From positions 62,001 to 126,000 of IMG/VR virus record IMGVR_UViG_3300023174_000036: a stretch of 64,000 nucleotides of DNA; one strand, given 5' to 3'. The notes beneath the pieces are model-generated. The model ran no database searches. It was not told where the DNA came from and worked only from the letters and a program-made list of their open reading frames with translations. A program made the translations under genes and the position numbers. Source of the DNA: a virus. Below, piece after piece: positions 6,137 to 54,300 of the stretch; the first letter of the stretch is position 1; every line of letters starts with the position of its first letter.

Positions 6137-9100
6137 TTAGCGCATCTGCGCTATAAAATACGAGCTTGCCAACATACTGCCATCTACTCCGCCTGTAAAA
6201 TTAACTCTAGCGGCAAAGTTGATTGATTTTGCAGGATCAGTATTTGTTATGTTACTTGAAACTGCGGCTCCAATTGTAGTTTGATTAAATGAAATTTGTC
6301 CGCTCACCACAGTGTTGGCATTGAGACTTGCACCACCACCACCAATTCTTGATGAAATGTAATTTTTTAATGCTCGTTGTGTGACAATCACATTGTCTGA
6401 ATTCAACGGTAGTGTTGAATCTGTTGAGATTTCAGTAATGGTTGCACTGGTTCCTCCCAACACAATACCGCCCAGTGTAAGTTGTGTGAGTCCATTTAGA
6501 TCAAAGAAGCTGGCGTTCAGTGTGGCAATACCGCTGGCTTGTTCTACTTTAAACAAGTTACCTACTCTATAGTTACCGTCTTGGTCTGTTGCTGTATAGA
6601 AACATCTGCCGCCACCATTTTCTACTGCAAGATTTCCAGTGCGCACTGTGGTAGTATCCACATAAGGATAGTTGGTAGTTGAAAAATTACCAGTTCCTAT
6701 TTCTAACCAGTCGTGACCTGTTAATCTGTTCTGACTATAGTCAGATCTAATTTGAATACTAGTTCCGTGTGCTGGTGCATCTTTCAGTTCAAGTGTTGGG
6801 TTCAGTTGCAATCTGCAACTGTACGGACCTGATCCACTAATTTGGCTCACCGTGACCAATCGATACACTGTTGGCACTCCAACTATTATTATGTTTGCTC
6901 CCGGTGTAGGTACCACTGAGATACCAGAAACATACAAATATGCACCAAATTGGAAACTGTCTGCATATCCTACCCCTGACACAGTTGCAGTTGCTGTCAA
7001 ATATGCTGTTCCACGGTTACTGAATGTGGGTTGTCCCAATACACCATTTCCAACTCGAACAGTATACGTTGCGGCAGATTGTCCTGGTGATATCAATGTC
7101 ACTGTTGGAGGTGTGCCTGAATTATAACCTGATCCAGGATTGATAATTCTAAATCCGCCAATTCGGCCGCCAGATACAGTTACCCTTGCAATGGCTTGAG
7201 TACCACTGGTTGGTGCGGCAATAACTACTCTAGGTTCAATGTTGTATTGACTTGTGGTGTCTAAAACAGACAGTGCGCTGCCTGGTAGGAAATGATCCCA
7301 CCCTTGCGTACCATCAGTTTCTTTGTATATTGTAGCAACTTTGGTAGTTGCATTGTAATCCTGTATGTATCCGTATTGTCCAGCACCTTTACCTGAAATA
7401 ACAACAACTCTCATGCCAAGATAATTTGCTCGAACATTGCCGTCGCCGGCTGCTATGGTAATTGTTCCAGTTGTAGATCCAGCTTGTGCATAACTTTGCG
7501 AAAATATAAACCCGCTGCCGCCAGCACTGTCGCCGTTGAGTGGGTCTCGCAAGCGAATTTCAAAAATTCCACCATCAGTAACTGTGGCCGCAGAAACAAC
7601 TGCTCCTGATCCTGAACCACCAAACGTGTATGCGGCCGCTGAGTCATAGTTTTGTCCTGCATTGGTATATTCTAAAGCAATTATTTGTGAGCCGTTTGTA
7701 AACGCATATCCTATTGATGCTTGCTGGCTGCGATTATTAACTGTGCCAGTAATAGGCACTTCATCTGTATTTGACCCTTCACTAACTGCACCATAGTCTC
7801 CATATGAGTTATTGCCGTTGGTTGCACGAATCTTTCCACCATTTTCTGCCAAATAACCAATGTGACAGTAGTAGGTAAAACAAGAAACCAATTCTGATTT
7901 GCCTCGATTGGTAATCCAATAGCCAATACCATCACTGATAATCATTGTGAAATCATTGGCCACAATGGATTTATTTCCTCCACCATGCACTGCACCGTCT
8001 ACTTTTAATCCAGTACATCCGCTACCAATAGCAGTGACGTTTTGTATATAAGGAGATTTGGTTGTAATTCTAGCTTCGGTAATAGCAATACCAGTTGGAT
8101 CCAAACTTATAAATGCACCTGCGGTTGGGCGTTTTGTCAAGAACGAATTAAATGGTCCTAACGTTCCACTCAGTCCTTGCAATGTCACGTTGCGAATACC
8201 AGATCCGTTGCGCACATAGAACATGTTGCTGGCAGTGTATCCGCTGGCTGGTTGAATTACTGTGCTACGTAATTCATCTCCCACCAATGCCACATCCGCA
8301 GGAATTGTGATTGGCAATATTTCACTGTAAATGCCCGTTTTAATAAAAATTGTTGCGGGCCCAGTAACGTGTTCACATGCATATTTGACTGTTTGGAATG
8401 GCTTGTCTAAGGATACACCGTAACCCAATAATTCATTGTCCGTACCTGTGGGTGCAACATAATAAACTTTTGGAATAACGCCCCATGATTTATATGACAA
8501 TGCTCCGCTGGTGCCTACACGTAATAGCTGTCCGTCGGTACCTACTGGTAACCGCTTTTTAACTCCAGCATCGTACCAAGCGATGTCACCTTGATTGGCC
8601 AGCACGTTGGTAGTTGTGCCTTCAATGTATATTTTCCAGTATGTGCCAGACCCTGCAACATCAGTTACTGGTGCTCGTGGTGTTGATGCAATATGCGCCA
8701 ATTTGCATTCGTATGTTGTAGAACCCTGAGTTGCAAGATCACCCAGTTTAAATTCCACTGGAACAGTTAATCCAATCGTGACTGGATCAGGGTCTGTTAA
8801 TCTCCATAGTCCTCTCCAAGCGTTACCTTGATTTAATACTTTCCAATAGGTTGCATTAGGAGGTTCTATACCTGTATTATCTAGTATTGCCAAATACAAG
8901 TATCCGTTTAATCTAACGACATCCCCAACTCTATAATCCAAAGGACCTACTGGATCCACTGTAGTTGCTGACCATGCTCCTCGAAATTCATAGTTTTCAG
9001 TTACTAATCCCCAATAAGCATTGGCTGTTGCTTGAGGTTGCTGACCAATATTAGTTTGCAATGCTCGATACACATAACCACCATAACCAACAATATCACC

Positions 9101-9823
9101 TTTTTGATAAGACTGCGATGAAGACCAAGGTAATGACTCCCATTGTAGGCCGTCTAGATAGACATCCCAATTAGACACAGTAAATACACTTAACAAAGAA
9201 GTGTGGCTGGTATTGCACTTCCACAACGTTCCGCCATATTTTACTACATCTCCAACCTTGTATCGAGTACTGCCAGTCCAATTGGATTTGTACTCAACCT
9301 GCTGAATAACCAATTCCCATTTGCTAAGATCAGTCTCTAAACCATCTTCCGGTATTGCGGCACTGGTGTGAGCAGTTACACAACGATAAACTTGTGCTCC
9401 GTATTTTACAATGTCATTGACTTTGTATTGTGTTGAGGTAGTCCATGCATTTTTCCAATCTTCAGTTTTGGCCAAAGTAGTCCAAGCGCCTTGATTAGCT
9501 TCCAATCCCAATACAGTTGTTGCCGCGCTGGTGTGACTTGTAAGTGCTCTATAGGCAATTCCACCGTATCTTACTATGTCTCCTGGGTTGTATAAAGTAG
9601 CAGTTGACCATGCTCCTCTCCAAGAGCCACCGTCAAACATCAATACCCAGCGAGGAGTAGCTGCCGTTAAATCAGCAAGAAATGTTGTTGATGCAGTGTG
9701 CGTTACAAAACAAACATAAGATTTTCCGCCGTAATAAACAATGTCGTCTCTTACATATTGTGTAGTTCCGCTCCATGTACCTTTCCAGGTATATCTAATT
9801 TTTGCTATTTTAAAATCGGCCAT
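6137..9823 (-). CDS. Large tail fibre protein with CBM5/12-like repeats and beta-helix
   Basis: This gene encodes 1,228 residues; its ATG follows AAGAGAG. It is a paralogue of the gene at 1-6092. The N-terminal 420 or so residues hold about eight repeats with the pattern W..tT.Y..gDiV.YgG..Y.C...HTs, resembling carbohydrate-binding modules 5/12. At about residue 455 comes KVYYVAPTGTD followed by LDKPFQTVKYACEH, then a predicted right-handed beta-helix containing LRSTVIQPASGYT and NGGKIRATNGNNSYGDYG. Glycine-rich GSGY...PTVTL repeats follow, and a C-terminal domain of about 200 residues ends in YFIAQMR. Unlike its neighbour it lacks the helical insertion and the propeller blades. Role inferred: tail fibre or baseplate-attached adhesin. 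A late-promoter-like octamer lies 52 bp upstream, inside the end of the preceding gene, so it may be transcribed separately. Confidence 0.8.
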   Translation of the reverse strand: MADFKIAKIRYTWKGTWSGTTQYVRDDIVYYGGKSYVCFVTHTASTTFLADLTAATPRWVLMFDGGSWRGAWSTATLYNPGDIVRYGGIAYRALTSHTSAATTVLGLEANQGAWTTLAKTEDWKNAWTTSTQYKVNDIVKYGAQVYRCVTAHTSAAIPEDGLETDLSKWELVIQQVEYKSNWTGSTRYKVGDVVKYGGTLWKCNTSHTSLLSVFTVSNWDVYLDGLQWESLPWSSSQSYQKGDIVGYGGYVYRALQTNIGQQPQATANAYWGLVTENYEFRGAWSATTVDPVGPLDYRVGDVVRLNGYLYLAILDNTGIEPPNATYWKVLNQGNAWRGLWRLTDPDPVTIGLTVPVEFKLGDLATQGSTTYECKLAHIASTPRAPVTDVAGSGTYWKIYIEGTTTNVLANQGDIAWYDAGVKKRLPVGTDGQLLRVGTSGALSYKSWGVIPKVYYVAPTGTDNELLGYGVSLDKPFQTVKYACEHVTGPATIFIKTGIYSEILPITIPADVALVGDELRSTVIQPASGYTASNMFYVRNGSGIRNVTLQGLSGTLGPFNSFLTKRPTAGAFISLDPTGIAITEARITTKSPYIQNVTAIGSGCTGLKVDGAVHGGGNKSIVANDFTMIISDGIGYWITNRGKSELVSCFTYYCHIGYLAENGGKIRATNGNNSYGDYGAVSEGSNTDEVPITGTVNNRSQQASIGYAFTNGSQIIALEYTNAGQNYDSAAAYTFGGSGSGAVVSAATVTDGGIFEIRLRDPLNGDSAGGSGFIFSQSYAQAGSTTGTITIAAGDGNVRANYLGMRVVVISGKGAGQYGYIQDYNATTKVATIYKETDGTQGWDHFLPGSALSVLDTTSQYNIEPRVVIAAPTSGTQAIARVTVSGGRIGGFRIINPGSGYNSGTPPTVTLISPGQSAATYTVRVGNGVLGQPTFSNRGTAYLTATATVSGVGYADSFQFGAYLYVSGISVVPTPGANIIIVGVPTVYRLVTVSQISGSGPYSCRLQLNPTLELKDAPAHGTSIQIRSDYSQNRLTGHDWLEIGTGNFSTTNYPYVDTTTVRTGNLAVENGGGRCFYTATDQDGNYRVGNLFKVEQASGIATLNASFFDLNGLTQLTLGGIVLGGTSATITEISTDSTLPLNSDNVIVTQRALKNYISSRIGGGGASLNANTVVSGQISFNQTTIGAAVSSNITNTDPAKSINFAARVNFTGGVDGSMLASSYFIAQMR
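8163..8281. repeat. 119 bp perfect direct repeat, copy 2
   Basis: Identical to 4002-4120. It lies inside the second fibre gene at the matching position of the beta-helix, and its ends coincide with abrupt loss of identity on both sides. Confidence 0.95.
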
Positions 9824-23441: not shown

Positions 23442-25967
23442 TTAACCGAATCTATTACCTGACAGTCGTTTAGTGGCTTTAACTTGCTTAGTTGCAGTTT
23501 CAACTGTTTCGGCGCTGTGTTCTATTAGTTGTCGTATGCTTGTATTTAACTGAATTAATTGTTCGTTAAGATCATTTAGGCCAACTTTGTTTGATTGTTC
23601 TTCAAACTTTGGTTCTTCGGTTTTGTATTCAATTTCTTCCAAATCATTTGGTACAGCTTTATCAGTACTGGGTTTGGTTATGGAATCTATAGACTCTGAT
23701 TCAGCATTGTTAATTTTAGCTCTGTTAATTTCAGGTGTTACAGCATTATTAATTTTAGCGGCTTGTGCTTCTACTTTCTTTTGAGCATCTACCTGGCCCA
23801 ATCCCTGTGATATATTTTTCTGTATATCAGTAATGCTTACTGATTTTGTGTTGGGTTCTGTAACAGTTTTAGTTGTGGTGCCCGCACTGATTCGAGCTTC
23901 TATCTTAGAAGATATTTCTAACATTTTTGCTTCAAGTGCTTTGGCCTGTGGATTATCTTTCATGGCCCGTATAACATCTATGCCTTTGGCATCTGGTCCA
24001 AGATTGCTTTTTACTTGAGATCGTATGCCATCTCTATCTGTTTGATATTGTGCTTTGACTGCTTCTAATTCTTTCTTAGCGGCTTTGGCATCATCATTTT
24101 CAACACTGGATCTGGTAGTAGAACCACCACCACTTACTGAACTAATTGTAGTTGTGATCTCTTTTAAACCGCTGGTAATTTTGCTAACATCAAGTCCACC
24201 AGCACCAACGGTTGGTGTTTTAGTTGTTGCAGATTTCATTACATCATTAATAGCATTGCTTGCTGAACCAGACAACAAGTTCTTTAATTGTTCAGGAGTT
24301 ACCACTGTTTCCCCTTTGTGTAATTTTGCCACTACATCTTTGGGTTCAGTTGCTTGTCCTATTTCACCTAGTGTACCGTGTTCGCGTTTAGGACCTTCGC
24401 CGGCTGCTTTTCGTTGTTTAGCAACTTCAGAAGACTGTCCTGGTGCCACAGTTTCTACTATTTTGGTGCCGGCTGCTTTAAATCGTTTATCGGCTTCATC
24501 TTGATTTGTGTTATTACCAAATGCTCGCTCTAATGTTTGTCTAACTGCATTGATTTTGTCAGGACTTTGTCCTAATTCTTTATTAAATCCTGCCAATGCG
24601 CCGCTTGCTGCCGCGGCATTCATCCTTGCAGATTCATATACCGAGTTTAGTGCTTGAGTAGCTCGTGCGCCTTCGTTTTGTGTACCCGGGGCTCCGTAAG
24701 GACGATCTCTGCCTTCTTGAGTTCTACCACTTATGGCTGCATCTCCCAGTCCAACTAGCTGTGCTTGTTGTGCTTGTTCAGCAGTTAGTCCTGTACGTTG
24801 TGCGGCACCTTGGCCAAATTTTTGAGTATTTTCTGCTTGAGCTCGTTCGTAAGCGGCTTTTTGATTTGGATCTTGTGTAGTCAGTGCTCGCTGTGCAAAT
24901 TGTTTGCTGTTTTGATATTGATTTGCTCTAGCAACTTCAGATCTCATGCGTTCTTCTGCCGCAATTTTTTGAGGATCGTCTTCAGCTAGTCCAGCAGTTC
25001 GTCTAACATCTCTGGCAGCTCGCATGTATTGCCCTGCTCGTCCACCGGTAGAAACTTGCAATTGTGTTCGTTGATCTTTACTAAGAGCGCCACCGGCTAT
25101 GATAGTACTGGTGATGTTTTGCATAGATTGCCCTAGTCCGGCAGTTGCTAATCTAGTTGCTTGTAATGCATCTCTAGTTTGATCATTGCCAACTGCTTGC
25201 AGTTCCAATTGCCCTCTAGCAGATTTGTTATACTCTTGCATACTTGCAATAATCTGTTCTCGCCCAACTCCAGTAACAGTTGACAGTCTGTTGATGTTAT
25301 TGGACATTTCAGCAGTCTTGGCCAATAACTCTTCTCTGCCTTCTTTTGAATTCAGTTGGGTAGTTTTGCCTCCAGCCGCAATGGCGGCAATTTGTGCAAT
25401 CTCTTCTGGACTTACCCCAGCTAATCCTTTTAACTTTTGTGCTTGTGGAGTACCTTGTACGTCTTTAGCAAACTCTAAAAATTTTCTAGAACTTAATTCA
25501 TTAGATTGGTCAATAGTTTTTAAACTGTTTCCAGCAGTCTTAGTTAATTGGTCAATATAGTCTTTACCGTTTTTATATCCTGCTTTTTGTGCGTCTGCGG
25601 TTAATTGTGTGTAGTCTAGCTGGCCTATTCCAATCTTATTTGCTTGGTTAGCTAAGTCTCTGTATTCTTCTATTAATTTATAACTTGCCTTGCCTAATTG
25701 CCCACCTATGGATGCAACAGCCTCTAAGCTATTTTTGGCAGCATCACTGGCATTTCTAACATTCATAAATCCACTAGCAAGCTGTGGTAATTCTCTTGTC
25801 ATCAGACCGAGGAAATCGCTAGTACCTTTATTAAAAATTTCTAGTGGGTTACTGGTTGGGGCAGCAACCGGAGAAGCGGCTTTCTTGGCTTCTGAATTGT
25901 TGCCTAGAGCTTCTTTTATTGCTTCAAGTAGCTTAGTTGCTATTTGTCCGTAATCTAACTCTGCCAT
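23442..25967 (-). CDS. Putative tail tape measure protein (gp29-like role)
   Basis: The protein has 841 residues from the ATG at 25967, which follows GGGGAT by 8 bases; the five extra upstream codons start with TTG and are unlikely. It is largely Ala/Gln/Lys-rich alpha-helix. Tape-measure-like features are LASGFMNVRNASDAAKNSLEAVASIGGQLGKASYKLI near the N-terminus, a KLHKGETVVTPEQLKNLL segment near residue 560, and the C-terminal LNEQLIQLNTSIRQLIEH...VKATKRLSGNRFG, which matches my memory of tape-measure ends in aquatic T4-like phages. The divergent neighbour is gp26 with a frameshift product resembling tail assembly chaperones, which usually sit beside the tape measure gene. No strong membrane segment is evident. 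A different minor virion role remains possible. Confidence 0.6.
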   Translation of the reverse strand: MAELDYGQIATKLLEAIKEALGNNSEAKKAASPVAAPTSNPLEIFNKGTSDFLGLMTRELPQLASGFMNVRNASDAAKNSLEAVASIGGQLGKASYKLIEEYRDLANQANKIGIGQLDYTQLTADAQKAGYKNGKDYIDQLTKTAGNSLKTIDQSNELSSRKFLEFAKDVQGTPQAQKLKGLAGVSPEEIAQIAAIAAGGKTTQLNSKEGREELLAKTAEMSNNINRLSTVTGVGREQIIASMQEYNKSARGQLELQAVGNDQTRDALQATRLATAGLGQSMQNITSTIIAGGALSKDQRTQLQVSTGGRAGQYMRAARDVRRTAGLAEDDPQKIAAEERMRSEVARANQYQNSKQFAQRALTTQDPNQKAAYERAQAENTQKFGQGAAQRTGLTAEQAQQAQLVGLGDAAISGRTQEGRDRPYGAPGTQNEGARATQALNSVYESARMNAAAASGALAGFNKELGQSPDKINAVRQTLERAFGNNTNQDEADKRFKAAGTKIVETVAPGQSSEVAKQRKAAGEGPKREHGTLGEIGQATEPKDVVAKLHKGETVVTPEQLKNLLSGSASNAINDVMKSATTKTPTVGAGGLDVSKITSGLKEITTTISSVSGGGSTTRSSVENDDAKAAKKELEAVKAQYQTDRDGIRSQVKSNLGPDAKGIDVIRAMKDNPQAKALEAKMLEISSKIEARISAGTTTKTVTEPNTKSVSITDIQKNISQGLGQVDAQKKVEAQAAKINNAVTPEINRAKINNAESESIDSITKPSTDKAVPNDLEEIEYKTEEPKFEEQSNKVGLNDLNEQLIQLNTSIRQLIEHSAETVETATKQVKATKRLSGNRFG

Positions 25968-25993
25968 AAAAAAAATCCCCAAAAATATGCGTA

Positions 25994-26001
25994 TATAAAT
26001 A
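25994..26001 (+). promoter_or_regulatory. Late promoter TATAAATA for gp26
   Basis: An exact match to the T4 gp55-dependent late box, 30 bp before the gp26 ATG, with AGGAG as ribosome-binding site in between. It overlaps the transcription start region of the opposing late box at 26013-26020. Confidence 0.75.
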
Positions 26002-26012
26002 GCTATACATTA

Positions 26013-26020
26013 TATTTATC
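26013..26020 (-). promoter_or_regulatory. Late promoter GATAAATA for the tape measure/gp20 operon
   Basis: The minus strand reads CCTGATAAATATAATG, matching 7 of 8 positions of the late box, 45 bp before the ATG at 25967. The paired box on plus (25994-26001) lies 11 bp away, so two late promoters fire across each other. Confidence 0.65.
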
Positions 26021-26031
26021 AGGAGTCAGAT

Positions 26032-26859
26032 ATGTCCCAAAATCCCTTACAACAGTTTTTTAGACAACCAAAAATTTATATTACATTGCCCAGCAAGGGT
26101 GTTTTTAATAGTCCAGAGTCGTTGTCGGGAACTTTTGAAAATATGCCAGTTTATGGCATGACTGGCATGGATGAAATTATTTTAAAGACTCCTGATGCAT
26201 TGATGTCCGGCGAAAGCACTGTTAAACTAATTCAAAGCTGTTGCCCCAGTATCAAAGATGCTTGGTCATTGACCACACTGGATACCAATCTAGTGTATGC
26301 CGCTATACGGATTGCCACTTACGGACATGAATTGTCAGTAACACAAACGTGCGCAGAATGTGAAACTGAAAATGATTTTGACATTGATTTGAATCATGTT
26401 GTAGAACATTATGGCAATTGCCATTACAATCACAAGTTGGTGTTGGATGGATTAACTGTTAAAACTAGACCGTTGACATTTAAAGAATCCAACGATTTTA
26501 GTTTGGAAAATTACAACTTGCAACAAAAATTAAATCAAGCAGATCAAATTGAAGATGTTACTGAAAAACAACGATTGTTCAAAGAACTGTTTGAAGAACT
26601 GTCAGTAACTCAACAGAAAATATTTTCAAAGAGTGTGGAAGCTGTTGAAGTTGGCGATCAGGTGGTTACTGATACAGTTTATATTGAAGAGTGGCTGAAA
26701 AATTGTGACAAGAGTGTGTTTGAAAAACTCAAAAAACATGTTGAAGACAACAGAACAGCTTGGGACATGCCCACATGGCCAGCAAAATGTGAAAAATGTG
26801 AAGCAGAGTCTAAGATTTATATTGAGCTTGATAACTCTAGTTTTTTCGACAACGCCTAA
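26032..26859 (+). CDS. gp26: Baseplate hub protein gp26
   Basis: The protein has 275 residues and is a member of the T4 gp26 baseplate family (Pfam T4_baseplate). The recognisable core is KIYITLPSKGVF, then MPVYGMTGMDEIILKTPDALMSGESTVKLIQSCCPSI near residues 39-74. Two CxxC pairs, C107/C110 (TCAECE) and C253/C256 (CEKCE), probably bind one zinc. It begins a plus-strand unit with a perfect late box and AGGAG. The last codons contain T-TTT-TTC (26841-26847), a canonical -1 slippery heptamer followed by a stem-loop, so a fraction of ribosomes should bypass the stop at 26857 and make a 349-residue form. The gene ends convergently against the 399-codon minus gene. Confidence 0.85.
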   Translation: MSQNPLQQFFRQPKIYITLPSKGVFNSPESLSGTFENMPVYGMTGMDEIILKTPDALMSGESTVKLIQSCCPSIKDAWSLTTLDTNLVYAAIRIATYGHELSVTQTCAECETENDFDIDLNHVVEHYGNCHYNHKLVLDGLTVKTRPLTFKESNDFSLENYNLQQKLNQADQIEDVTEKQRLFKELFEELSVTQQKIFSKSVEAVEVGDQVVTDTVYIEEWLKNCDKSVFEKLKKHVEDNRTAWDMPTWPAKCEKCEAESKIYIELDNSSFFDNA

Positions 26860-26901
26860 TTAGATTCTCTCCCGAAGAGATACTTGAAGAACTAGTTAGG
26901 C
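26841..26901 (+). promoter_or_regulatory. Programmed -1 ribosomal frameshift signal in gp26
   Basis: The slippery heptamer T-TTT-TTC occupies 26841-26847 in the gp26 frame. After a 6-base spacer, GCCTAATTAG (26854-26863) can pair with CTAGTTAGGC (26892-26901), giving a 10 bp stem with a single G-U wobble; an inner stem TCTCT/AGAGA (26866-26870 with 26876-26880) nests inside. The gp26 stop codon lies in the outer stem. These are the three parts expected of a -1 frameshift site at usual spacing. Confidence 0.8.
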
Positions 26902-27080
26902 TGGACAAACAGGCCAAAGAATTTAAACAAGAGTTGTTTAGAATCAGTTGGTACATGCGGGGAGGTGTAACAGTAAATGAACTACTGCACATCTACAGCT
27001 ATGAAGATCGACAGGCAATCTACGCTGTGATCAATGAAAACATTGAAATAACCAAAGAATCAAACATGCCTCTGTTGTAA
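26841..27080 (+). CDS. gp26 frameshift extension, tail assembly chaperone-like
   Basis: This open frame lies -1 relative to gp26. It is bounded by a TAG at 26838, has no ATG before codon 36 and no ribosome-binding site, yet looks fully coding. The 77 codons after the slip (from CGA at 26847) give RQRLIRFSPEEILEELVRLD, a helical acidic segment, then ISWYMRGGVTVNELLHIYSY and EDRQAIYAVINENIEITK, ending NMPLL. Total fused product 349 residues. Short proteins with a WYMRGG...L...R..I..VI..NIE.TK pattern occur next to baseplate genes in T4-like phages as I recall, and frameshifted two-form tail chaperones (lambda G/GT, P2 E/E') serve the tape measure protein. The stop is 1 bp from the end of the convergent gene. 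Confidence 0.72.
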   Translation, partial: FFRQRLIRFSPEEILEELVRLDKQAKEFKQELFRISWYMRGGVTVNELLHIYSYEDRQAIYAVINENIEITKESNMPLL

Positions 27081-41800: not shown

Positions 41801-42339
41801 TTAAGCCGTTACCTCCAAGTTCAGCTGAATTGTACAATTTAATTGCTCCAAAATTGAATTTAATCAAATCAATCAGCGATGAAATTGTGTACCACCCAGT
41901 TACATATAAATTGTTATTTGGAACTTCGGCAACAATTGATTTGCAAGCCAGTTTTAAAATAACCAAAAGTTTAAATTCAGTAGTTTCAGAAAACGATATC
42001 AAATCAAGGGCAATAACTGCAATCAACCAATTTTTCACATTAGATAATTGGAATTTTGGAGATATATTTTATTTTACAGAATTATCAACTTATGTAATGA
42101 CACAGCTTGCTCCTGATATTACTAATTTTATTATTGTGCCAAGACAAGACGGATCTTACTTTGGTAGTTTATTTGAAATAAAATGCCCAAGTGATCAGAT
42201 TTTTATCAGTAGTGCAACGGTAGATGATATTGAAATAATTACCGGAATAACTTCAGGCAATATTAAATCAGTGACTGGACAAGCACTCAGCGCAGTATCA
42301 TCACAAAACACAACTAGCTCAACATACGGAAATATCTAA
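38887..42339 (+). CDS. gp6: Baseplate wedge protein gp6, enlarged
   Basis: The protein has 1,150 residues (T4: 660). gp6 is the baseplate-J-like wedge protein that forms the inner ring. The N-terminus is diagnostic: LITEDWKKIYQSFKNADFQSYDFENLRRTMITYLRTNYPEDFNDYIESSEYLALVDLIAFLGQSIAFRVDLNARENFLELAERRDSVLRLARLISYNAKRN. The C-terminal DIVASF... and FKITKSLNSVVSENDIKSRAITAINQFFTLDNWNFGDIFYFTELSTYV...IIVPRQDGSYFGSLFEIKCPSDQIFIS is also gp6-like. The extra length is in the middle (about residues 200-800), consisting of beta-rich inserts. It ends in a TAATG overlap with the giant gene, so the two should be made in linked amounts. Confidence 0.9.
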   Translation: MSSIDRQNNLLITEDWKKIYQSFKNADFQSYDFENLRRTMITYLRTNYPEDFNDYIESSEYLALVDLIAFLGQSIAFRVDLNARENFLELAERRDSVLRLARLISYNAKRNIPAKGLLKFTTVRTTETVVDSNGRNLAGQVITWNDPSNANWLDQFTKVMNAAMPATQQFGNPASKADIYGIPTSQYRFQGSNTDVPVYAFSKSIAGKSMNFEITSTTFTGEDYIYEEAPKVGNSPACVYRDDGHGAASINTGFFFNFTQGTLNAGAFTISQPSTNESIDIATQNINNTDVWLYRLDQNGAESELWTKIPELTGNNVIYNSLNKSIKNIYAVVTRTGDAVSLAFSDGTFGTLPLGDFRTYYRISNGLSYIINPADVRNISISIPYTSRKGQNETLTVTLSLVSTVSNAAASETNAYIKANASATYYTQNRMITAEDYNISPLSANQQVAKIKSVNRTSSGISRYFDLKDPTGKYSSTNLFGNDGVIFQESYTLPIKFKYTTKVDIEGIIYNQIVDIIKNEDLRNFYYSNFINFLSTSLNIVWYNKTSDTTSSTGYVGELNDTRPYPVGSYTATDLKYLTANALVKFTAPTGYYFDLNKSNALKVGDATLSGRSSYIWAQVVSVNANGTAAGTGILSSGLGPITLNQVIPSTAQITQIIPKLSLSIPSSVITQMIDLIYSNRPFGLRYDATDQSWKIIFETNLDATSGFSLSNQGSLSNLKNDSSWILLFTTDNDFYTITTRLLRYVFESDDEIRFFFEDNTAVYDSTSNSVVKDLINILSINTKPGSSGKPFTQDLKWDIVASFNGLDGYIDNKKIVVSFQDSDNNDIVDNPQLFLDIVDYQNIQNSFIVQEKYAISAGQNDYRYRSNSDNKVLFFATQSSIGSLSQYKDGQYFYFSDTGVVKKLNLTKSLLVPTLDYKVYVGRDNLKFQYIHRADYESRIDPGASNIMDIYVLTKSYDTLFRQWLDGSTVVKPLPPSSAELYNLIAPKLNLIKSISDEIVYHPVTYKLLFGTSATIDLQASFKITKSLNSVVSENDIKSRAITAINQFFTLDNWNFGDIFYFTELSTYVMTQLAPDITNFIIVPRQDGSYFGSLFEIKCPSDQIFISSATVDDIEIITGITSGNIKSVTGQALSAVSSQNTTSSTYGNI

Positions 42340-45300
42340 TGACTGATTTTACAAATCCATCAGGGTCTAAAGGACTTAGTGTAAATTTAATACCTAACTT
42401 TTTTAAAACAGATGCTAATAAACGATTTTTACAAGCAACAGTAGATCAGCTGGTAGCACCTGGCACGGTTAAAAAAGTTAACGGATTTGTTGGCAGACCG
42501 TATTCAAAATCAACTTCAGGTACAGATTTATTCATTGAAGCTCCAAATTTAGTTCGTCAGAATTACCAATTGGAGCCAGCATTAACTGTACAGGATACAT
42601 TAGGTAATAATACTTTCTTTAAAGACTACATTGATTACATAAACCAACTGAGTGTATTTGGAGCCAACGTATCCAATCATGATAGGCTTAATAAACAAGA
42701 ATTTTATTCTTGGAATCCTCATATTGATTGGGATAAGTTTGTTAATTTTCAAAATTACTACTGGTTATCGTACGGCCCTGAGACTATTAAAATATTTGGT
42801 CAACAACTTACAGCACAGAGTACTTATAAAATTGCCCTTGAATATCAAGGACAAAACAATCAGTATGTGTTTACTCCCGACGGGTTAACTCCAAACCCTG
42901 TGATTAAATTATACAGAGGACAAACTTATAAATTTATTATATCTAGTCCAAGCAATCCAATCAGCATAAAAACTGCAAGATCAACCGGTATCGACGATAG
43001 GTATGAAATACCGGGGATAGACTCTTATGGAGTTGAAAGTGGAGTAATCACAATGACTATTCCTGTAAACTCTCCAAATGTTTTATATTATCAAAGCGAG
43101 ACTGATGTAAATTTAGGCGGACTCTTTGAAATATACAATATAGATGAAAATTCATCCATTAACATTAAATCAGAAATTTTAGGTAAAGTTAACTATACAC
43201 TAAGTGATGGCACTGCATTGAGTAATGGCATGAAGGTATCGTTTGGTGGACAAGTTTCTCCCGCGGAATATGCAACGGGTGAATACTATGTTGAAGGAGT
43301 AGGCACTGCTATTCAATTGATTGAAAAATCAATTTTAGAAATCTCAACAACTTATACAGAATCTGAAACATTGTTATTTGATTCTAACCCCTTTGATATA
43401 GATGCGTTTAGCGATTCTACCGGCTTTGCAAAAACATTAGACTATATGGTTATTAATAGAGCAAGTCGAGATCATAACCCTTGGTCTCGATATAACCGAT
43501 GGTTTCATAAAGATGTAATAAATGCCAGCGCATCATTTAATAAAACGATAGCATCTTTGGATCAAAGCCTTAGAGCAGTACGTCCTATTATTGAATTCAA
43601 TGCAGATTTAAAATTATTTAATTTTGGTACAGATGCAATTTTTGATATTGACTTAGTTGATTCGTTCACAACAGATGCATTTTCAACCATTGAAGGCAGT
43701 CTGGGATATAGCATTGATGGAATCAGTTTATCTGAAGGACAAAAAATATTATTTTTATCGGATACAGATAGATTAGTTAAAAATAAAATTTTTAAAGTAG
43801 AGTTTATAGATGTTAAGCATCTATCTGCTAATTCACGCCAAATTCATTTAGTTGAACTACACTCACCAGCTGATAATGAAGTAGTACTAGTAAAACAAGG
43901 AATTGCAAATCAAGGATTAATGTATTGGTTCACTGGTACCACATGGATTTCAGCACAGCAAAAAACTAATACCAACCAGTTTCCGTTGTTTGATGTAGTT
44001 GATGCAACTGGAACTAGTTTTAGCAATATAGACAAGTATGATGGAACTACTTTTAAAGGAACTTACTTATTTTCTTATAGGGTTAATCCAACAGGAATAA
44101 GCGACTCGAATCTTGGATTTGCGCTTTCTTACAGAAATATAGAAAATATAGGAGATATTGTTTTTGATTTCAATTTTGATACAGACGTATTTTCTTATAG
44201 AGAATCTGTTAATATTATAACTGTTCCTGTTAATACAGGGTATCTCAGTACAAAAGATTATGCAGGAAATACAATTTACAAAAATGCATGGGAAACTTGT
44301 ACAGCACCAAATACTCAAGCTGGTATACGAATTTACAAAAATTCAAACAAAACTAATAATTTTAAATTAGATATCTTTGATAATATTTCAGATCTTAAAG
44401 ATTTAGTAGTTCGTGTATACATTAATGGTAAACGTTTAGCAACTGATCATTGGTCGGTAGTTGATGCCCCAGACTACAAAACAATTAAATTAAAAGCAGA
44501 TATTTTAAAAACTGATGTATTAACAATAAAAACATACGCCTCACAGCCAATAAATTCTAATGGATTTTATGAAATTCCATTAAATTTACAACACAATCCT
44601 TTGAACAGCGGATTAACAACATTAACGCTGGGTGAAGTAATTGATCATGTAGACAGCATTGTTGATAATATCTATGCAGCCGATGCTGGCAACATAGAAG
44701 GAAATAATTATGATGTAAAGTCTGATTTTACAAAAACTCTTACTTTTATTGGAACCTTCCCAGGCGCAAGTAATTTACGAGATTTAGGTAATATAACACC
44801 GTACGGTACTAAGTTTGTACAACACAGTAGCCCTTCAAGTATTTCTTTATATCACATTACAACTGAAACCAACAATGTGATCCGAGCAATACAAGAAAGC
44901 AGAGACAAGTATATTCAATTTAAAAAGAATTTCTTAGCAGTGGCATTAAATTTAGGAATTGAAACTACTCCGTCTAAACAAGTTGATTTAATACTGGAAC
45001 AAATTAACAAAGATAAATCTAAAACAGATCCATATTATTTTAGTGATATGGTGCCGTATCGTGCCGGCGTAAAAACAAATATCACAGTTGTTGATCCTCG
45101 AATAAAAACATATCCGTTAAAAACAAACTTTATATTAGATACTTTATCCAATAAAGCTGTTATTGTCTATGTTAACGATTTACAATTAATTTATCAAGCA
45201 GATTATTATTTTAATGAGCAAGGATTTGTTGTTATCAACCATACTCTAGTTGAAAACGATACAATATCTATTGTTGAATATGACAGCACAGACGGCTCAT

Positions 45301-48300
45301 TCATTCCAGAAACTCCAACTAAATTAGGCATGTGGCCAAAATACAAACCAATGCTTTATTTAGATACAACATTGGTTACTCCACGTTGGATGATACAAGG
45401 ACACGATGGTAGTCATGTACTTGCATACGGTACATACGGCGCAAGCGGTGTTGCCGACTATCGAGATGCAATTATCCTTGAATTAGAAAAAAGAATTTTT
45501 AACAATATCAAAGTAGAATACAATACAGAAATTTTTGATATTGCAGAACTAGTACCTAGTTATAATAGACCTGGAGATTATTCTAGAAAAGAATTTGATC
45601 AAGTACTAGCTCCTTCGTTTTATCAATGGGCTTCGTTAGTTGATAGAGATTTTACAAAACCGTTAAGTTTTGACAGAAATAATCCTTTTACTTTTAAATA
45701 TAATTCCTTTAGCACTCCTGATGGTCAAGAAACTCCAGGATACTGGCGCGGAATTTATCAGTGGATTTATGATACAGACCGACCAAATATTTGCCCGTGG
45801 GAAATGTTAGGATTTAGTATTGAACCGTTATGGTGGAAAACATTATACGGCCCAGCACCGTATACCAGCGATAATCTTGTGATGTGGAAAGACATATCCG
45901 AAGGCTTTATACGAAACCCAAATGCACCAGCAGTTCAGACAAAAAAATATATTAAACCGTTTTTATTAAAACATTTACCTGTAGATGCTACTGGTAACTT
46001 GGTTAATCCGTTGGTATCTGGATTTATTTCTGGAACAATAACAGCTCATTCTCAAACAGATTTTGTATTTGGTGACGGTAGCCCTGTTGAAACTGCTTGG
46101 AGAAGAAGTAGCCACTATGCGTTCAGCGTTATATTAACAGCGATCTTATTAAAACCTTCTGATACTTTTGGAAAATTATTAGATAGGTCTAGAATAACAA
46201 GAAATCTTTGCGGACAACTGATTTATAATGAAACTGGTTTACGAATCAAATCGGAAGTTGTTAAGTTTCCAAGCATCTATTCCAGTACCGAACGTGTACA
46301 GACATCGGGCATTATCAATTATATTATCAATTATATTCTAAGTGATAATTTAAAATCTTACGATACGTATGCTTATGATTTAACTTATATTAATACAAAA
46401 TTAAGTCATAGAGTAGGCGCATTTACATCAAAAGAAAAATTTAAATTATTACTAGACTCTAAATCTCCGTTGTCAACTAGCAGTGTGTTTGTGCCTCCCG
46501 AAGATTACACTGTAATTTTAAATTCTTCTTCTCCAATAAAGAAATTAACATACAGCGGAGTAATTGTTAGTAAATTAGCCGACGGTTATGAAATTAAAGG
46601 ATACAGTAGAAGTACTCCTTATTTTAAATACTATCAGTATCAACAGTCTGGTATCACTATAAACATTGGCGGAATATCTGAAAATTTTGTTGCATGGACA
46701 GCCAACGAACGTTACGGGCTTGGCCAAGTTGTCAAATATAATAATCAATATTTTAGATCATTAGTAACGCACACCACTTCAGGCACTTTTAGTGATTCCT
46801 ATTACGAAGCATTACCGCGTTTACCAATTATTGGCGGTCGCGATGCAGTGATAAGAAAATCGTGGGATAAATCTATTATCAACACTAGCCCGTACGGTAC
46901 TAAATTTGAAAAAATACAAGACGTTGTTGATTTCTTGTTGGGATACGGTGAGTGGTTAAAAGATGAAGGATTTATATTTGATGAATTTAACCCAATACTA
47001 AACGCAGTCACTAATTGGGAAACCAGTGTCAAAGAATTCTTGTTCTGGACAACACAAAATTGGAGCACAGGCGAGGATAAATGGGCCGAGTGGACGCCAG
47101 GTATGCGTATGACATATGGCGATATAGTTCGTTATAACGGCGACTATTTCAAAGCTAATAAAAATTCAACTGCCTCAGTGTTTTTAGAAACTGACTTTAC
47201 AAAATTAGACGGCCTTAACAACAACGGTGGTTCCGCAATAAGTCTAAGTCCTGCAGCCGCAAAGCTGACATTTAAAACAGAATTAAGCGTAATAGATGAC
47301 ATCCGAAATCCATTTAACGGATATGAAATTTTTAAAGTTGATGGCACACCTCTTGAACCTACTTTCATTAATTCTTATAGAGAAGACAACGCAGTTAGTT
47401 ACAGTCCGCGCGGAGAAGATGGTATCTACGGCGCAACATTTTATCTAATACAGCAAGAGCATGTTGTTTTGTTAAACAATGTTACTATATTTAATGATAC
47501 AATTTTCAAACCAGAAACTGGTTATAAACAGGATAGAATTAAAGTTGCAGGTTATGTCAGCACCAACTGGTATGGTGGGTTAGATATTCCTGGATTTATT
47601 CTTGATGTTGCTAAGATACAAAATTGGACTCCGTGGGAGGATTACGACCTTGGCGATATTGTAAAATACAAGCAATTCTACTATACTGCAAGTAGATTTT
47701 TACCAGGAGCAGTTTCTTTTGTTAATGAAGATTGGATATTGTTAGATAAAAAACCAGTAACGCAACTATTACCAAACTGGACATATAAGGCAGAACAGTT
47801 TACTGACTTTTATAGTTTAGATAGTGATAATTTTGACACTGCACAACAACAGTTAGCTCAGCACTTAATTGGGTATCAAAAGAGACAGTATCTTACAAAC
47901 ATCATCAAAGATGATGTAAGCGAGTTCAAATTTTATCAAGGAATGATTCGCGAAAAAGGAACACAAAACAGTTTAAACAAATTGTTTGATGTGAAATCTG
48001 CACTTGGCGAAGAAAGTTTAAAATTTTACGAAGAGTGGGCAATTAGAACTGGTCAGTACGGAGCTAGCGAAGCATTTGAGGCTATAGAATTTGTGTTAGA
48101 AGAATCAAAAATGAGAAGTAATCCTCAAGGGTTTTACCTATCAGAAAATTTTGACGATCCAAACGATTTCATAATCACATACAATTCGAGCCAAGTATAT
48201 TTAAAACCAGTTGGATACACATCTAATCCATGGCCTGTATTAACACAATATCGTCCTTATTTAAGAAGCGCAGGTTATTTTAGATCTGACGAAGTGTATA

Positions 48301-51300
48301 CTACTGTAAAATCTCTTGAAGACATTGTATCAACAAATACAGACCCATCACTTTTTCAACCAAACATATCTGTAGCAGTTACTTTTGAAGGAACTGGATG
48401 GAATGTGTACAAATATATTGATTCTAATGTTACTGTTACTAATGTAGATTACAATAACAGTACAAAAACTTTAACTATTAAATTAAGCGAACTAGTAGAT
48501 TTTGCAGTTGGCTCTTACATAGGCATAGACCAAGTTGATTTAATAAAAGGATTTTATAAAATTCTTTCAGTATCACTGAATACATTCACAGTCTCTGCAA
48601 CAATTCCAAGTTGGGTTCCTCCATTTACGCAATCTCAGAATGTAATAATTTTTAGATTTGTTAGCCAAAGGTCAGCGGCAATGGATTTGGTTGATAATCT
48701 AACACGCCCTCCTTTGATTCCTGGTGACAAATTATGGATTGATTCTGATAGTAATAATAAATGGGCCGTGTGGGAATATTCCCCAGTATACAGTAGAAAA
48801 CTTATTCCAAACTCTAATCCTGTTGATGGTGTAAATTATGGAAAAACTATTTCTTGTACCAAACTAGGAAAAATTATTGCAATTGGTTCTAACTCTGGCG
48901 ACACAGAGATATGGGATAAATCTGGATACAATGCGCAGTGGATACAAAGACAACTTGTTACTAAACCGTTTGTCAGCTATTCGCCTAATGTATCTAAACT
49001 AGCAACGGTAGTTGCATTATCGTTTGACGGAAAATGGTTAGCTACAGGAAGTCCGCTAGCAAGCAATGCATACACAAAATTAAAAGGCAATTTTAATACT
49101 AATACTGCATATGTTACAGATGATATTGTATACCTAGGCAACAGCGGTGCATATACTGGATTTTATCAAGCACTACAAAACAATACCAATAGTACAATGC
49201 CACGTCCAGATGGTGTTGCGGGACTAATACCCAATGTATCATCTTGGAAAAAAATAAAATATGTTTCCACAATACTTGGTGGAACATCTAGCAATTTAAC
49301 AGAGCAAGGTGTTATTAGTCTTTATAGCAAAGATGCTAATAATATTTTTACACTTGTTGACACAATCATAAGTCCGTTCCCAACCAATAATGAAAAATTT
49401 GGTTCTCAATTAGCATTTGCTAACGACATCTTATATATTTCAGCAGTTGGATATAATAGTAATGCCGGTCGTGTTTATAAATTAAAACATTCAGTGGATG
49501 TTCAAGCAACTACATATTATAATCCTGTTGGCAGTTTAGGTACTACATTAAAAGTTACTTCTACAGTAGGAGTTTTACCTGGCATGCTGATTACTGGTGT
49601 TGGATTCACTTCTGGCCAAATTGTATCTTCTGTAACAGATTCAACAACACTGACAATTTCACAACGACCAGATATAACACCTACAGGTCTAATTAAATTT
49701 TCAACTGTGGGTTGGGGATTTGATCTATCGGCAACTTTATCTGGAGATGTTGCAAATCGAAATTTTGGATCAGGCATAGTAGCAACTGACGACGACAGTA
49801 CGTTAGTAGTTACTGCCAATAACGATTCTTTATCTGGACAAATTAAAATTTATAGATCAGGAACACTATCTCAAACTATAACAGGAAACAATTTAAATTT
49901 TGGAAAGAGTGTTGATATTTCTGATAATGCAGACTACTTGGTAATTTCTGATAGTTTAGCAGATAATGAAAAACCTAAAGCAGGTACAGTAAATGTTTAT
50001 AAATTCACAGCATCTGTATTTGTGCAATATCAAACATTGAAAAATCACAAACCAGAAAATTCAGGATACTTTGGAAGTAAAGTTGCATTTATAGATGATT
50101 ATAAAACTATTGTGATTTATAGTTCTGATGAAGATACTGTTCTAAAAACTATCTTTGACGAAAACGAAACAATTTTTGATAAAAATTCTACTAATGTATC
50201 ACAACTGGCAACTGAGTCTGGCCGTGTTGATGTGTACGACATGTACGAAACAAAATGGATTTATAGTGAAACTTTAGAAAATTTACAGACAGCCGGCGCA
50301 GGATTTGGACAAAGTATTGCTACAGGCAATAATCATATTATTGTAACGGCTCCTTTTGAATTCGATCAAAATTTACAATCGGGTATAGTGATTGATTATG
50401 AGAAAAAAGAAAATACTTTTAGCTGGACAATTAAACATCAGCAAACAACTGTGCCTGATCCTTCTAAAATAAAATCTGCATTTTTATACAACAAAGCTAC
50501 TGGCGAATTAGTAAAGTACATAGATGTTATTGATTTAGCACAGGGTAAAATTGCAGGCCCGGCCAGAGAAGAAATCAAATATTCATGTTACTATGATCCT
50601 GCCACTTACTCTATTAGCAATGCCAGCGATGATGTAACAGTTGACTCTGGTGCTCCGTGGGGCAAATCACAAGTTGGTTATATCTGGTGGGATTTACGAA
50701 CTACTAAGCTAATTGATGCTTACGACAACTCTGTAGTCTATAGAAATAGCGTATGGAATTCATTGGCAGTTGGAGCAACAGTAGACTTGTATGAATGGGT
50801 TGAAAGCACATTATTACCGGCAGCATGGGATGTTCAGTCTGACACCGAAGCTGGGATTGCTAATGGTATCAGCGGTAAGAGTTTGTACGGAAATAATGTT
50901 TATTCTATCAAAGAAAGATTTGACACTGGATCTCAAACAAAGAAGTACACGTATTATTATTGGGTGAAAAATAAAAAAACTATTCCTAATATACCTAGTA
51001 GGAATTTATCGGCTAGCGATATTGCAAGTTTAATTGAGAACCCACGCGGTTCTGCTTACACATATCTTGCATTAACTGGAACAAACTCATTTAGTTTAGT
51101 AAATGCCGCAGAATATTTACAAGATTCTAATATAGTACTATCAGTAGAGTATTGGACTGTAAATAATACATCTCAAAATATCCATAGCCAGTGGAAAATT
51201 ATTAATAATGATTCTGCCACAGTAATTCCTGCACATCTTGAACAGAAATGGTTTGACAGTTTATGCGGCAAGGATGCCATAGGTAGAGATGTTCCAGATG

Positions 51301-54300
51301 CTTCGCTGGCAGAAAAACTTCGCTACGGCATAGAAAATCGACCTAGACAAAGTATGTTTATCAATAGATTTGAAGCATTGAAACAGTTGGTCGAAGAAAC
51401 CAATGCAGTGCTGTTGGAAAATCCAATTGTTGACAGTCGAAATATTGCCAACATTGACGTAAAAGAATCTGCACCTAATCTAGTATCTGGATTGTATGAT
51501 ACTACTCAAGCAACTTCGGAAGAGCTACGTTTTGTGAACGTTGGGGCTTTTAGAAGACCAGTGATAGACAGTTGTACTATTGTTGATGGTAAAATAACAG
51601 ACATCAACATTTCTTATACTGGTAGAGGATACTTAGTTGCTCCGTATATTTCAATATCAGGCAGCGGCGAAGGTGCAATAGTTAGAGCTGTATTAAGTAG
51701 TAATGGAACGGGACAAATTGTTGGAGTAACTATTATAAACTCAGGAGAAGGGTATGATGACAATACCGTTGCAACTGTTCGAGATTATTCTGCATTAGTA
51801 ATAAATGATTCAGGAGCTCGAGGTGTTTGGAGTATATACTCGTATGATCCAGATGGAAAACTTTGGTCTAGAACAAAATCTCAATCGTACGACGTAACTG
51901 CATACTGGAAGAAAACTGATTGGTTTGCATCCGGTTACAGTCAATTCACTGCAATTGATCATGCAGTAGATATGGTTTCGGATTTAAAAACACTAAATGA
52001 CACTGTTGGACAAATTATCAAAGTTCGAACAACTACCACAGGTTGGTCATTATTAGAAAAAATATCCAACATAGAGTCGTTTGATTATACACAAATGTAC
52101 AAAGTGATTGGTTTGGAAAACGGCACAATACAATTAAGCTCCGCACTGTATCAGTCGTCAACCGTTAGTACAGGATACGATGGAACAACGTATGATGGAA
52201 TCGCATTTGATAATAATCCTAATTTAGAACTTAGAATTATTTTAGAATCTTTAAAGAACGATATTTTTACTGATGACTTGAAAATAAAATATTTAAATCT
52301 ATTTTTTACAACAGTAAGATATGCATTAAGCGAACAAGTTTATTTAGATTGGATATTTAAGACAAGTTTCATTAAAGCACGTCACAATGTTGGAGAACTG
52401 TCAACTCCGGTAACATACAACAACGATAATTTGTCAAACTTTCAAGATTATATAAATGAGGTAAAACCATTTAAATCTAAAATTAGAGAATATGTTAGTG
52501 GTTATCAGTTGGTAGATCCAACTCCTACTATGGTTTCAGATTTTGACTTGCCGCCTATATATAGAAATAATGCGATAACAACAATTGCTACAAATGCAAC
52601 TCGAGGAGTTATAACAGCAGACGATGCTACTATTAGACAATATCCTTGGAAAAACTGGTTAGACAATGTTGGATTTATTGTAACAGATATAAAAATTATC
52701 AATGGAGGATCTGGTTATATCGGAGAACCTGTTGTAAAAATTACAAATGATTCTGGAAGTGGCGCAACTGCTAGAGCATTTTTTACAAATGGAGTAATTA
52801 ATCGAATTATTCTACTTACTCACGGTACCGGATACCTATCAGCACCAACTGTGACACTTACAGGTGGATTGTCTCCAACTGGTGTTGCGGCTCGTGCAGT
52901 TGCAATTATTGGAAATAGTGTATCGTCTTCTGAACATCACGGTGTTATTAGATCCAGTTTAATTAAAATAAAATTTGATAGAATATCAAGTTCTTATTTC
53001 TTTGTTAACCTAGAAGAAACTGAGTTTATTAACACTACTGGAAATTTACAATATAAACTAACGTATGCGCCGGATGTTATCATCGGGGCCGCAACAGTTA
53101 CAATTAACAATATTCCAGTATTGCGAGAAAACTATAAATTAACAACAGTTACAACAACAACTGATTATACTAAGTATTCAGGATTGATAACATTTGTGCC
53201 AGGTACGCAACCAAAGTCTGGACAAGTGCTTAAAATTGTTTATCTAAAGAATCAATCTTTGTTAAATGCTGCCGATAGAATACATCATTATTACAATCCA
53301 CAAGACGGTGATATTGGTAATGATTTATCGCAATTAATGACTGGAGTGGACTACGGTGGAGTAATAATACAAGGTCTTGGATTTGACATCAGTGCAGGTT
53401 GGGGAACAACGCCTTGGTTCACGGACAAGTGGGATAGTTTTGATCCGTTATTCGACGACTACATACTAACTGTAGCAGCCAATACACATTCTTTTACATT
53501 GCCGTATACTCCTTCCGTGGGAACTAAAATTAATACGTATTATGTAGGTTTAAATTTAACTACAATACCAGTAGTGACTAATACATTGATTTATCCGTAC
53601 ACTTACATTGGAACAAATCCCACAGCAACATTGGTAAGAAATGCAACAGCAGGAGGAACATCAGCAAATTATATTCCAGTGGGAGCTTATGATCCAACTT
53701 CAGTTATTATAAAAGTAGCAAGTGTTACTGGCATATTGCCAGGGATGTCTGTACTAGGTGTAGGTTTTACTTCAAAACAAATTGTATTGTTAACTAATCC
53801 TACATATAACACAGTTACATTAAGTGCTCCGCCAAATGTACAACCTAACGGTACTTTGTATTTCACTAAGAGTGTTGCAGGATCTACCACATTATCGTTA
53901 AGCAGTACAATTGGATTAAAAGTTGGTGATAAGGTATCTACATCTTCCGCACCTTCTTTTGGTGTTGACACTGTAATTAAAACGATTCTAAACAGCACAG
54001 AAATTTTGTTGAATCAAATAATTTATGTTACAGTTCCAACAGCGGCAACTCTTGTGTTCACTAGACCTTTAAACAAATATACTGACATAACTATTTCTAA
54101 TGGATTTGTAAACTTAACGAATTCCTTAACTTCTGGAAGTGTTATCAATATTACCAGCACGTTACCAAGTGTTAAATTAGACGACGAAAATTTTGGAACA
54201 CCTCAGCAAACTAATACCAGCGCAATCGTATCTACGTTTGTTGGCAACGGCAATTCAAACATTATAACTATTCCTAATACTTTTACAGTATCAGCTGGCG

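Follow-up and report, generated by a model that had tools for sequence, protein, structure and literature searches.

Gene 26 and its surroundings

The window analysed here is a stretch of 64,000 nt, positions 62,001-126,000 of the IMG/VR record IMGVR_UViG_3300023174_000036, a 356-kb record of a T4-like jumbo phage. It contains a homologue of T4 gene 26 with an overlapping open frame at its 3' end and, on the other strand, a divergent neighbour:

23442..25967, minus strand: divergent neighbour, 841 aa, ATG at 25967; candidate tape measure or structural protein, located where other jumbo phages have a 'structural protein'
26032..26859, plus strand: gp26 ORF, the short form, 275 aa; candidate TAC-N (PF12322, phrog_150, AF2 model)
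26841..26847, plus strand: slippery heptamer T TTT TTC in the gp26 frame (read directly; conserved in relatives)
26847..27080, plus strand: -1 frame extension, 77 residues and stop TAA; candidate TAC-C (conservation, dN/dS 0.13, gp51-type profile match, AF2)
26854..26863, plus strand: 5' arm of a stem, GCCUAAUUAG, 6 nt past the heptamer (fold, covariation)
26857..26859, plus strand: 0-frame stop TAA of gp26 (read directly)
26892..26901, plus strand: 3' arm of the stem, CUAGUUAGGC (fold, covariation; 97.3% of cells paired)

The product of the first frame, gp26, matches PF12322 (T4_baseplate, E 1.1e-16) and phrog_150 (baseplate hub, 3.9e-20), and in BFVD its AF2 model (pLDDT 85) finds predicted structures of T4-like baseplate hub assembly proteins (E 1.7e-21). 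A single copy of phrog_150, namely this gene, was found in the 356-kb record; therefore, both forms of the protein would come from one gene, as opposed to two in T4. The gp26 model also matches proteins of about 500 aa from the jumbo phages Erwinia Special G, phiEaH2 and Ralstonia RP12 (BFVD), which, judged by their predicted structures, are possibly unrecognised homologues of tail-assembly chaperones (TACs). In the alignment of the gp26 clade, two CxxC pairs are invariant (residues ~107-110 and 253-256) and may form a zinc site; for T4 gp51, there are weak matches to zinc ribbons.

Read directly, the last codons of gp26 are ...AGT TTT TTC GAC AAC GCC TAA. The sequence-only reading of this locus had described a -1 frameshift cassette, and its anatomy is borne out: a canonical X XXY YYZ heptamer lies in the gp26 frame at 26841-26847, three codons ahead of the TAA, the spacer comprises 6 nt (26848-26853), and the -1 frame runs without a stop from 26841 up to a TAA at 27078-27080. 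A shift after TTC joins 272 residues to 77, so that the products would have 275 and 349 residues. As had also been proposed, the extension lacks a start of its own near the shift site: the earliest ATG, GTG or TTG of the -1 frame in the window is a TTG at +93, and the next is an ATG at +114, in the middle of the domain. The ingredients of a -1 cassette (X XXY YYZ heptamer, spacer of 5-9 nt, downstream structure) are thus present as TTTTTTC, 6 nt and a 10-bp stem; a search for an Rfam family at the shift site found none. TTTTTTC is not a rare string: the window contains it 22 times and the 356-kb record 134 times. The heptamer alone therefore says little, and its significance derives from conservation, coding signal and pairing.

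That gp26 adjoins a tape measure gene is at most probable, the candidate being the divergent neighbour. The counterparts at the same place are a structural protein in PA5oct (annotated by ESI-MS/MS) and a gene with the note 'tail tape measure' in RaK2; the sequence similarity of the 841-aa protein to the jumbo-phage structural proteins at this place is weak. A DNA similarity search against public phages gave matches only in the neighbouring recombination endonuclease gene. Elsewhere in the window, two large phage proteins carry chitin-binding modules: a single ORF of 4822 aa (42339-56807, plus strand) has a C-terminal CBM_5_12 module (7e-11), and an ORF of 1228 aa (6137-9823, minus strand) has five CBM_5_12 repeats (5e-39).

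Conservation of the heptamer and the RNA stem

TTTTTTC stands in register at 24 of 24 loci of the window's clade, i.e., the window and 23 IMG/VR loci related to it by the extension (61-100% identity). At all 24 loci, the match to the extension starts at the heptamer, the distance from the start of the heptamer to the 0-frame stop is 10 or 16 bases, and the extension measures 79 codons counted from the heptamer (one ends at a contig end). Codon choice within the clade is uniform, too: the first Phe of the site is always TTT, and T is the last base of the preceding Asn, Ser or Thr codon in every case. For the second Phe, TTC is used in 13 of 13 cases, compared to 74 TTT and 21 TTC in the rest of gp26. 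Beyond the clade, the heptamer is in register at 151 of 151 further distinct IMG/VR loci, which were gathered by three different queries; 68 of them were retrieved via the pattern I[SCA]WYMRG and hence independently of the shift site.

Each of 13 public jumbo relatives has a -1 frame that continues beyond the gp26 stop, and 12 have TTTTTTC in register (Atu_ph07, Phosso, 121Q, GAP32, PA5oct, RaK2, BF, XaC1, SCTP-2, Vibrio 2.275, CBB and LR756511), the remaining one, CM1, having TTTTTTT. The cyanophages P-SSM2 and S-PM2 and the Vibrio phage KVP40 have TTTTTTC as well, and Cr30 and HTVC008M have TTTTTTT. Conservation of the slippery site and the -1 overlap downstream of gp26 orthologues, which had been named beforehand as a test of the frameshift, is thus seen in most of the sampled T4-like superfamily.

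The stem at 26854-26863/26892-26901 is present as originally described, with 10 bp and one G-U pair. The 65 nt downstream of the site fold with -16.5 kcal/mol (z = -3.18), a value reached by 1 of 200 shuffles. Across 15 distinct sequences, the 10-bp stem is paired in 97.3% of cells, and two pairs have changed on both sides (UA/CG and GC/AU; 8 double-change cells). Both the covariation score and the paired fraction exceed those of all 500 shuffles and all slid versions of the stem; the counts of covarying pairs and of pair types are not above the 500 shuffles, and the covariation is therefore good, not overwhelming. A second stem, which had been described as enclosed by the first, appears in the fold of the window and is not kept in relatives. 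Further afield, strong stems follow the site in Atu_ph07 (z -4.5), P-SSM2 (-3.1), S-PM2 (-4.1) and KVP40 (-4.0), and a moderate one in Phosso (z -2.5); folding found no strong stem after the site in RaK2, BF, GAP32 and HTVC008M, where it is weak or absent.

The extension and its counterparts in T4-like phages

That the extension is a conserved domain, as had been suspected from its sequence, is confirmed by the alignment of its relatives, which contains the conserved block FKQELFRI(S/A)WYMRGG. The extension is under protein-level selection: the median dN/dS is 0.13 in the -1 frame and 0.91 and 2.2 in the other two, and differences by codon position (0.24/0.10/0.49) are biased towards the third position. 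Its AF2 model (pLDDT 76) is all-helical, with helices at residues 11-38, 45-50 and 54-74. Searches of Pfam and PHROGs with the window's extension returned no family; the extensions of some relatives match the unnamed phrog_18291. For the extension and gp26 alike, a sequence search of the PDB with profiles gave no credible relative, and a Foldseek search of the PDB with the models gave no fold match.

In T4, PF12322 matches both gp26 (8.8e-64) and gp51 (3.9e-52), and gp51 has ~50 additional C-terminal residues; by sequence, it is clearly a gp26 paralogue to which a C-terminal extension is fused in frame. The T4 pair thus resembles the window in that gp51 equals a gp26 domain plus an extension. 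It differs in that the two T4 genes are divergently transcribed, in that a search near the end of T4 gene 26 found no slippery site, and in the length of the extension, which has 77 residues in the window. The profile phrog_150 covers T4 gp51 up to position 280 of 282, and its end (positions 227-281) matches the -1 frame after gp26 in cyanophages. The extension of the jumbo phages aligns with gp51-type extensions at E 1.7e-4 by hhalign, with a probability of only 49.5%, and both occupy the same position and begin with the same FF. A search of this genome with phrog_634 gave no match, which, like the low probability, speaks against an equivalence. Position and the common FF start favour homology, though only moderately, and the extension of the window is probably the counterpart of the gp51 C-terminus.

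Two more distant groups end gene 26 in other ways. In Ackermannviridae (Kuttervirus-type, phiEa2809), gp26 ends with an invariant ATT TTC AT(T/C) TAA; a conserved -1 extension comes next, and a search of these gp26 ends for an X XXY YYZ heptamer found none. In the Rhodothermus phage RM378 (region 25785-26465), the gp26 homologue ends TCC TTT TTT TGG, and the +1/-2 frame at the T7 run may encode a gp51-like extension, which suggests that RM378 might use a different kind of shift there. A tentative idea, which we consider rather doubtful at present, is that one orthologous chaperone gene has switched its route to two products several times: a canonical -1 heptamer in jumbo phages, cyanophages and KVP40, duplication and fusion in T4, a non-canonical -1 shift in Ackermannviridae, and a +1 or -2 shift on T7 in RM378. 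If this were true, the site in Ackermannviridae would represent a new class among -1 sites.

A probable tail-assembly chaperone in two forms

We consider it very likely that gene 26 encodes a tail-assembly chaperone in two forms, TAC-N and TAC-NC, the latter made by a -1 programmed shift. That a -1 shift yields gp26 in two lengths, in the manner of lambda G/GT, had been proposed from the start and is still the best reading in the light of conservation, coding signal and stem. Sequence anatomy, conservation, coding selection, stem covariation and gp26 homology are observed; from these we infer the occurrence of the shift, its rate and the chaperone role. Most ribosomes would stop at 26857 and release the 275-residue TAC-N, i.e., gp26. 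A minority would meet the stem (26854-26901) while on UUU-UUC and slip back by one base, both tRNA-Phe re-pairing on UUU UUU, and would then read on to 27078 to yield the 349-residue TAC-NC as the minor form. By analogy to lambda gpG/gpGT, the shared N-terminal part might coat the tape measure protein, the helical C-terminal part might link it to hub or tube assembly by recruiting the tube or hub, and neither form would stay in the virion. T4 would obtain these two products from genes 26 (short) and 51 (extended). The likeness to lambda lies in a minor long form that arises from a -1 shift at the 3' end of the gene for the short chaperone; the slippery site of lambda differs from that of the window, and the lambda tape measure gene lies downstream of G/GT, whereas the window's candidate is divergent.

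The shift could be real and its products still not be tape-measure chaperones, the long form acting only in central hub assembly. This is improbable, but it is the alternative that survives best: gp51 classically bears the name 'hub assembly catalyst', and PMC3004832 places T4 gp26 and gp51 among the hub assembly chaperones, gp51 being essential and of unknown function. On the other side, the two-form organisation resembles G/GT, and a TAC assignment for T4-like phages has been published, according to the passages of PMC10885494 and PMC12846349 that cite it. The two roles may also coincide, because T4 gp29 is annotated as both hub subunit and tail length protein.

Less probable still is an independent small gp51-like gene, with a start of its own or with translation coupled to the gp26 stop, and without any fusion. 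Public records do treat the extension as a gene product in its own right, either a hypothetical protein or a hub assembly catalyst (121Q_595, GAP32_242, BF_0247, CBB_249, XaC1_326, SCTP2_87, KVP40.0327 and P-SSM2 gp51), and in cyanophages such as P-SSM2 an ATG lies two bases past the gp26 stop, which makes separate initiation possible there. A free-standing gene with its own start in all close relatives had been named as an observation that would count against the shift; cyanophages and KVP40 are indeed annotated with a free-standing gene, 'gp51', but retain the heptamer. Were the gene separate, there would be no need for the heptamer to be invariant. Moreover, the extension is conserved from the heptamer on, T4 gp51 is the fused form, and the sole start common to all 12 clade members examined is the ATG at +114, inside FKQELFRI(S/A)WYMRGG, so that initiation there would forfeit half of the conserved domain. 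In a few clade members, a TTG comes before this ATG, or another ATG precedes the heptamer, at places that do not recur in the rest.

Transcriptional slippage on the T6 run, rather than a ribosomal shift, is less probable again as the source of the -1 product. The run of six T, and of T7 in three relatives, would suit it, but nearly all relatives keep six T followed by C without lengthening the run, and a covarying RNA stem at a fixed distance is typical of ribosomal -1 sites and would be superfluous for polymerase slippage. A sequencing error or a broken gene, in which both frames were once one ORF, has nothing but the frame break itself in its favour and is refuted by conservation, since the frame is broken at exactly this heptamer in distinct contigs and complete genomes numbering well over 150.

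The sequence-only reading knew of no standard annotation of this kind for gp26, but the phenomenon is not new. A TAC frameshift in T4-like phages has already been published by Vladimirov, Gautam and Davidson (2022, Virology 566:9-15), as cited in passages of PMC10885494 and PMC12846349. The passage in PMC10885494 (PRFect) states, citing this work, that in some T4-like phages two TAC genes, a short one and a fused long one, take the place of frameshifting, and the one in PMC12846349 (on phage Adele) that polyT -1 signals are known in T4-like TAC-N genes. As far as these passages go, the T4-like TAC-N/TAC-NC pairs (gp26/gp51) share with the window a gp26-homologous short form, a polyT -1 signal near the 3' end and, probably, a gp51-type extension, while the window stands apart by its 356-kb jumbo genome and an extension of 77 residues, which exceeds the ~50 of T4. 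The Vandenendeviridae chaperone of phage Adele (PMC12846349) likewise has a polyT -1 shift and a downstream ORF misannotated as a hypothetical gene, its motif being GTTTTT as opposed to TTTTTTC. The principle is thus in the literature, and the present case is well supported and unsurprising to a specialist. The abstract of the 2022 study reportedly names genes 26 and 51 and is said to describe the frameshifting as conserved in several T4-like groups.

For jumbo T4-like phages, the findings mean that a strictly conserved -1 shift very probably gives rise to the two forms of the tail chaperone. The small ORFs after gene 26 that are annotated as 'hypothetical' or as 'gp51 hub assembly catalyst' would then be explained as the tail of a fusion protein, and the locus in the window would offer a single-gene system for testing the role of the long-mysterious gp51 of T4.
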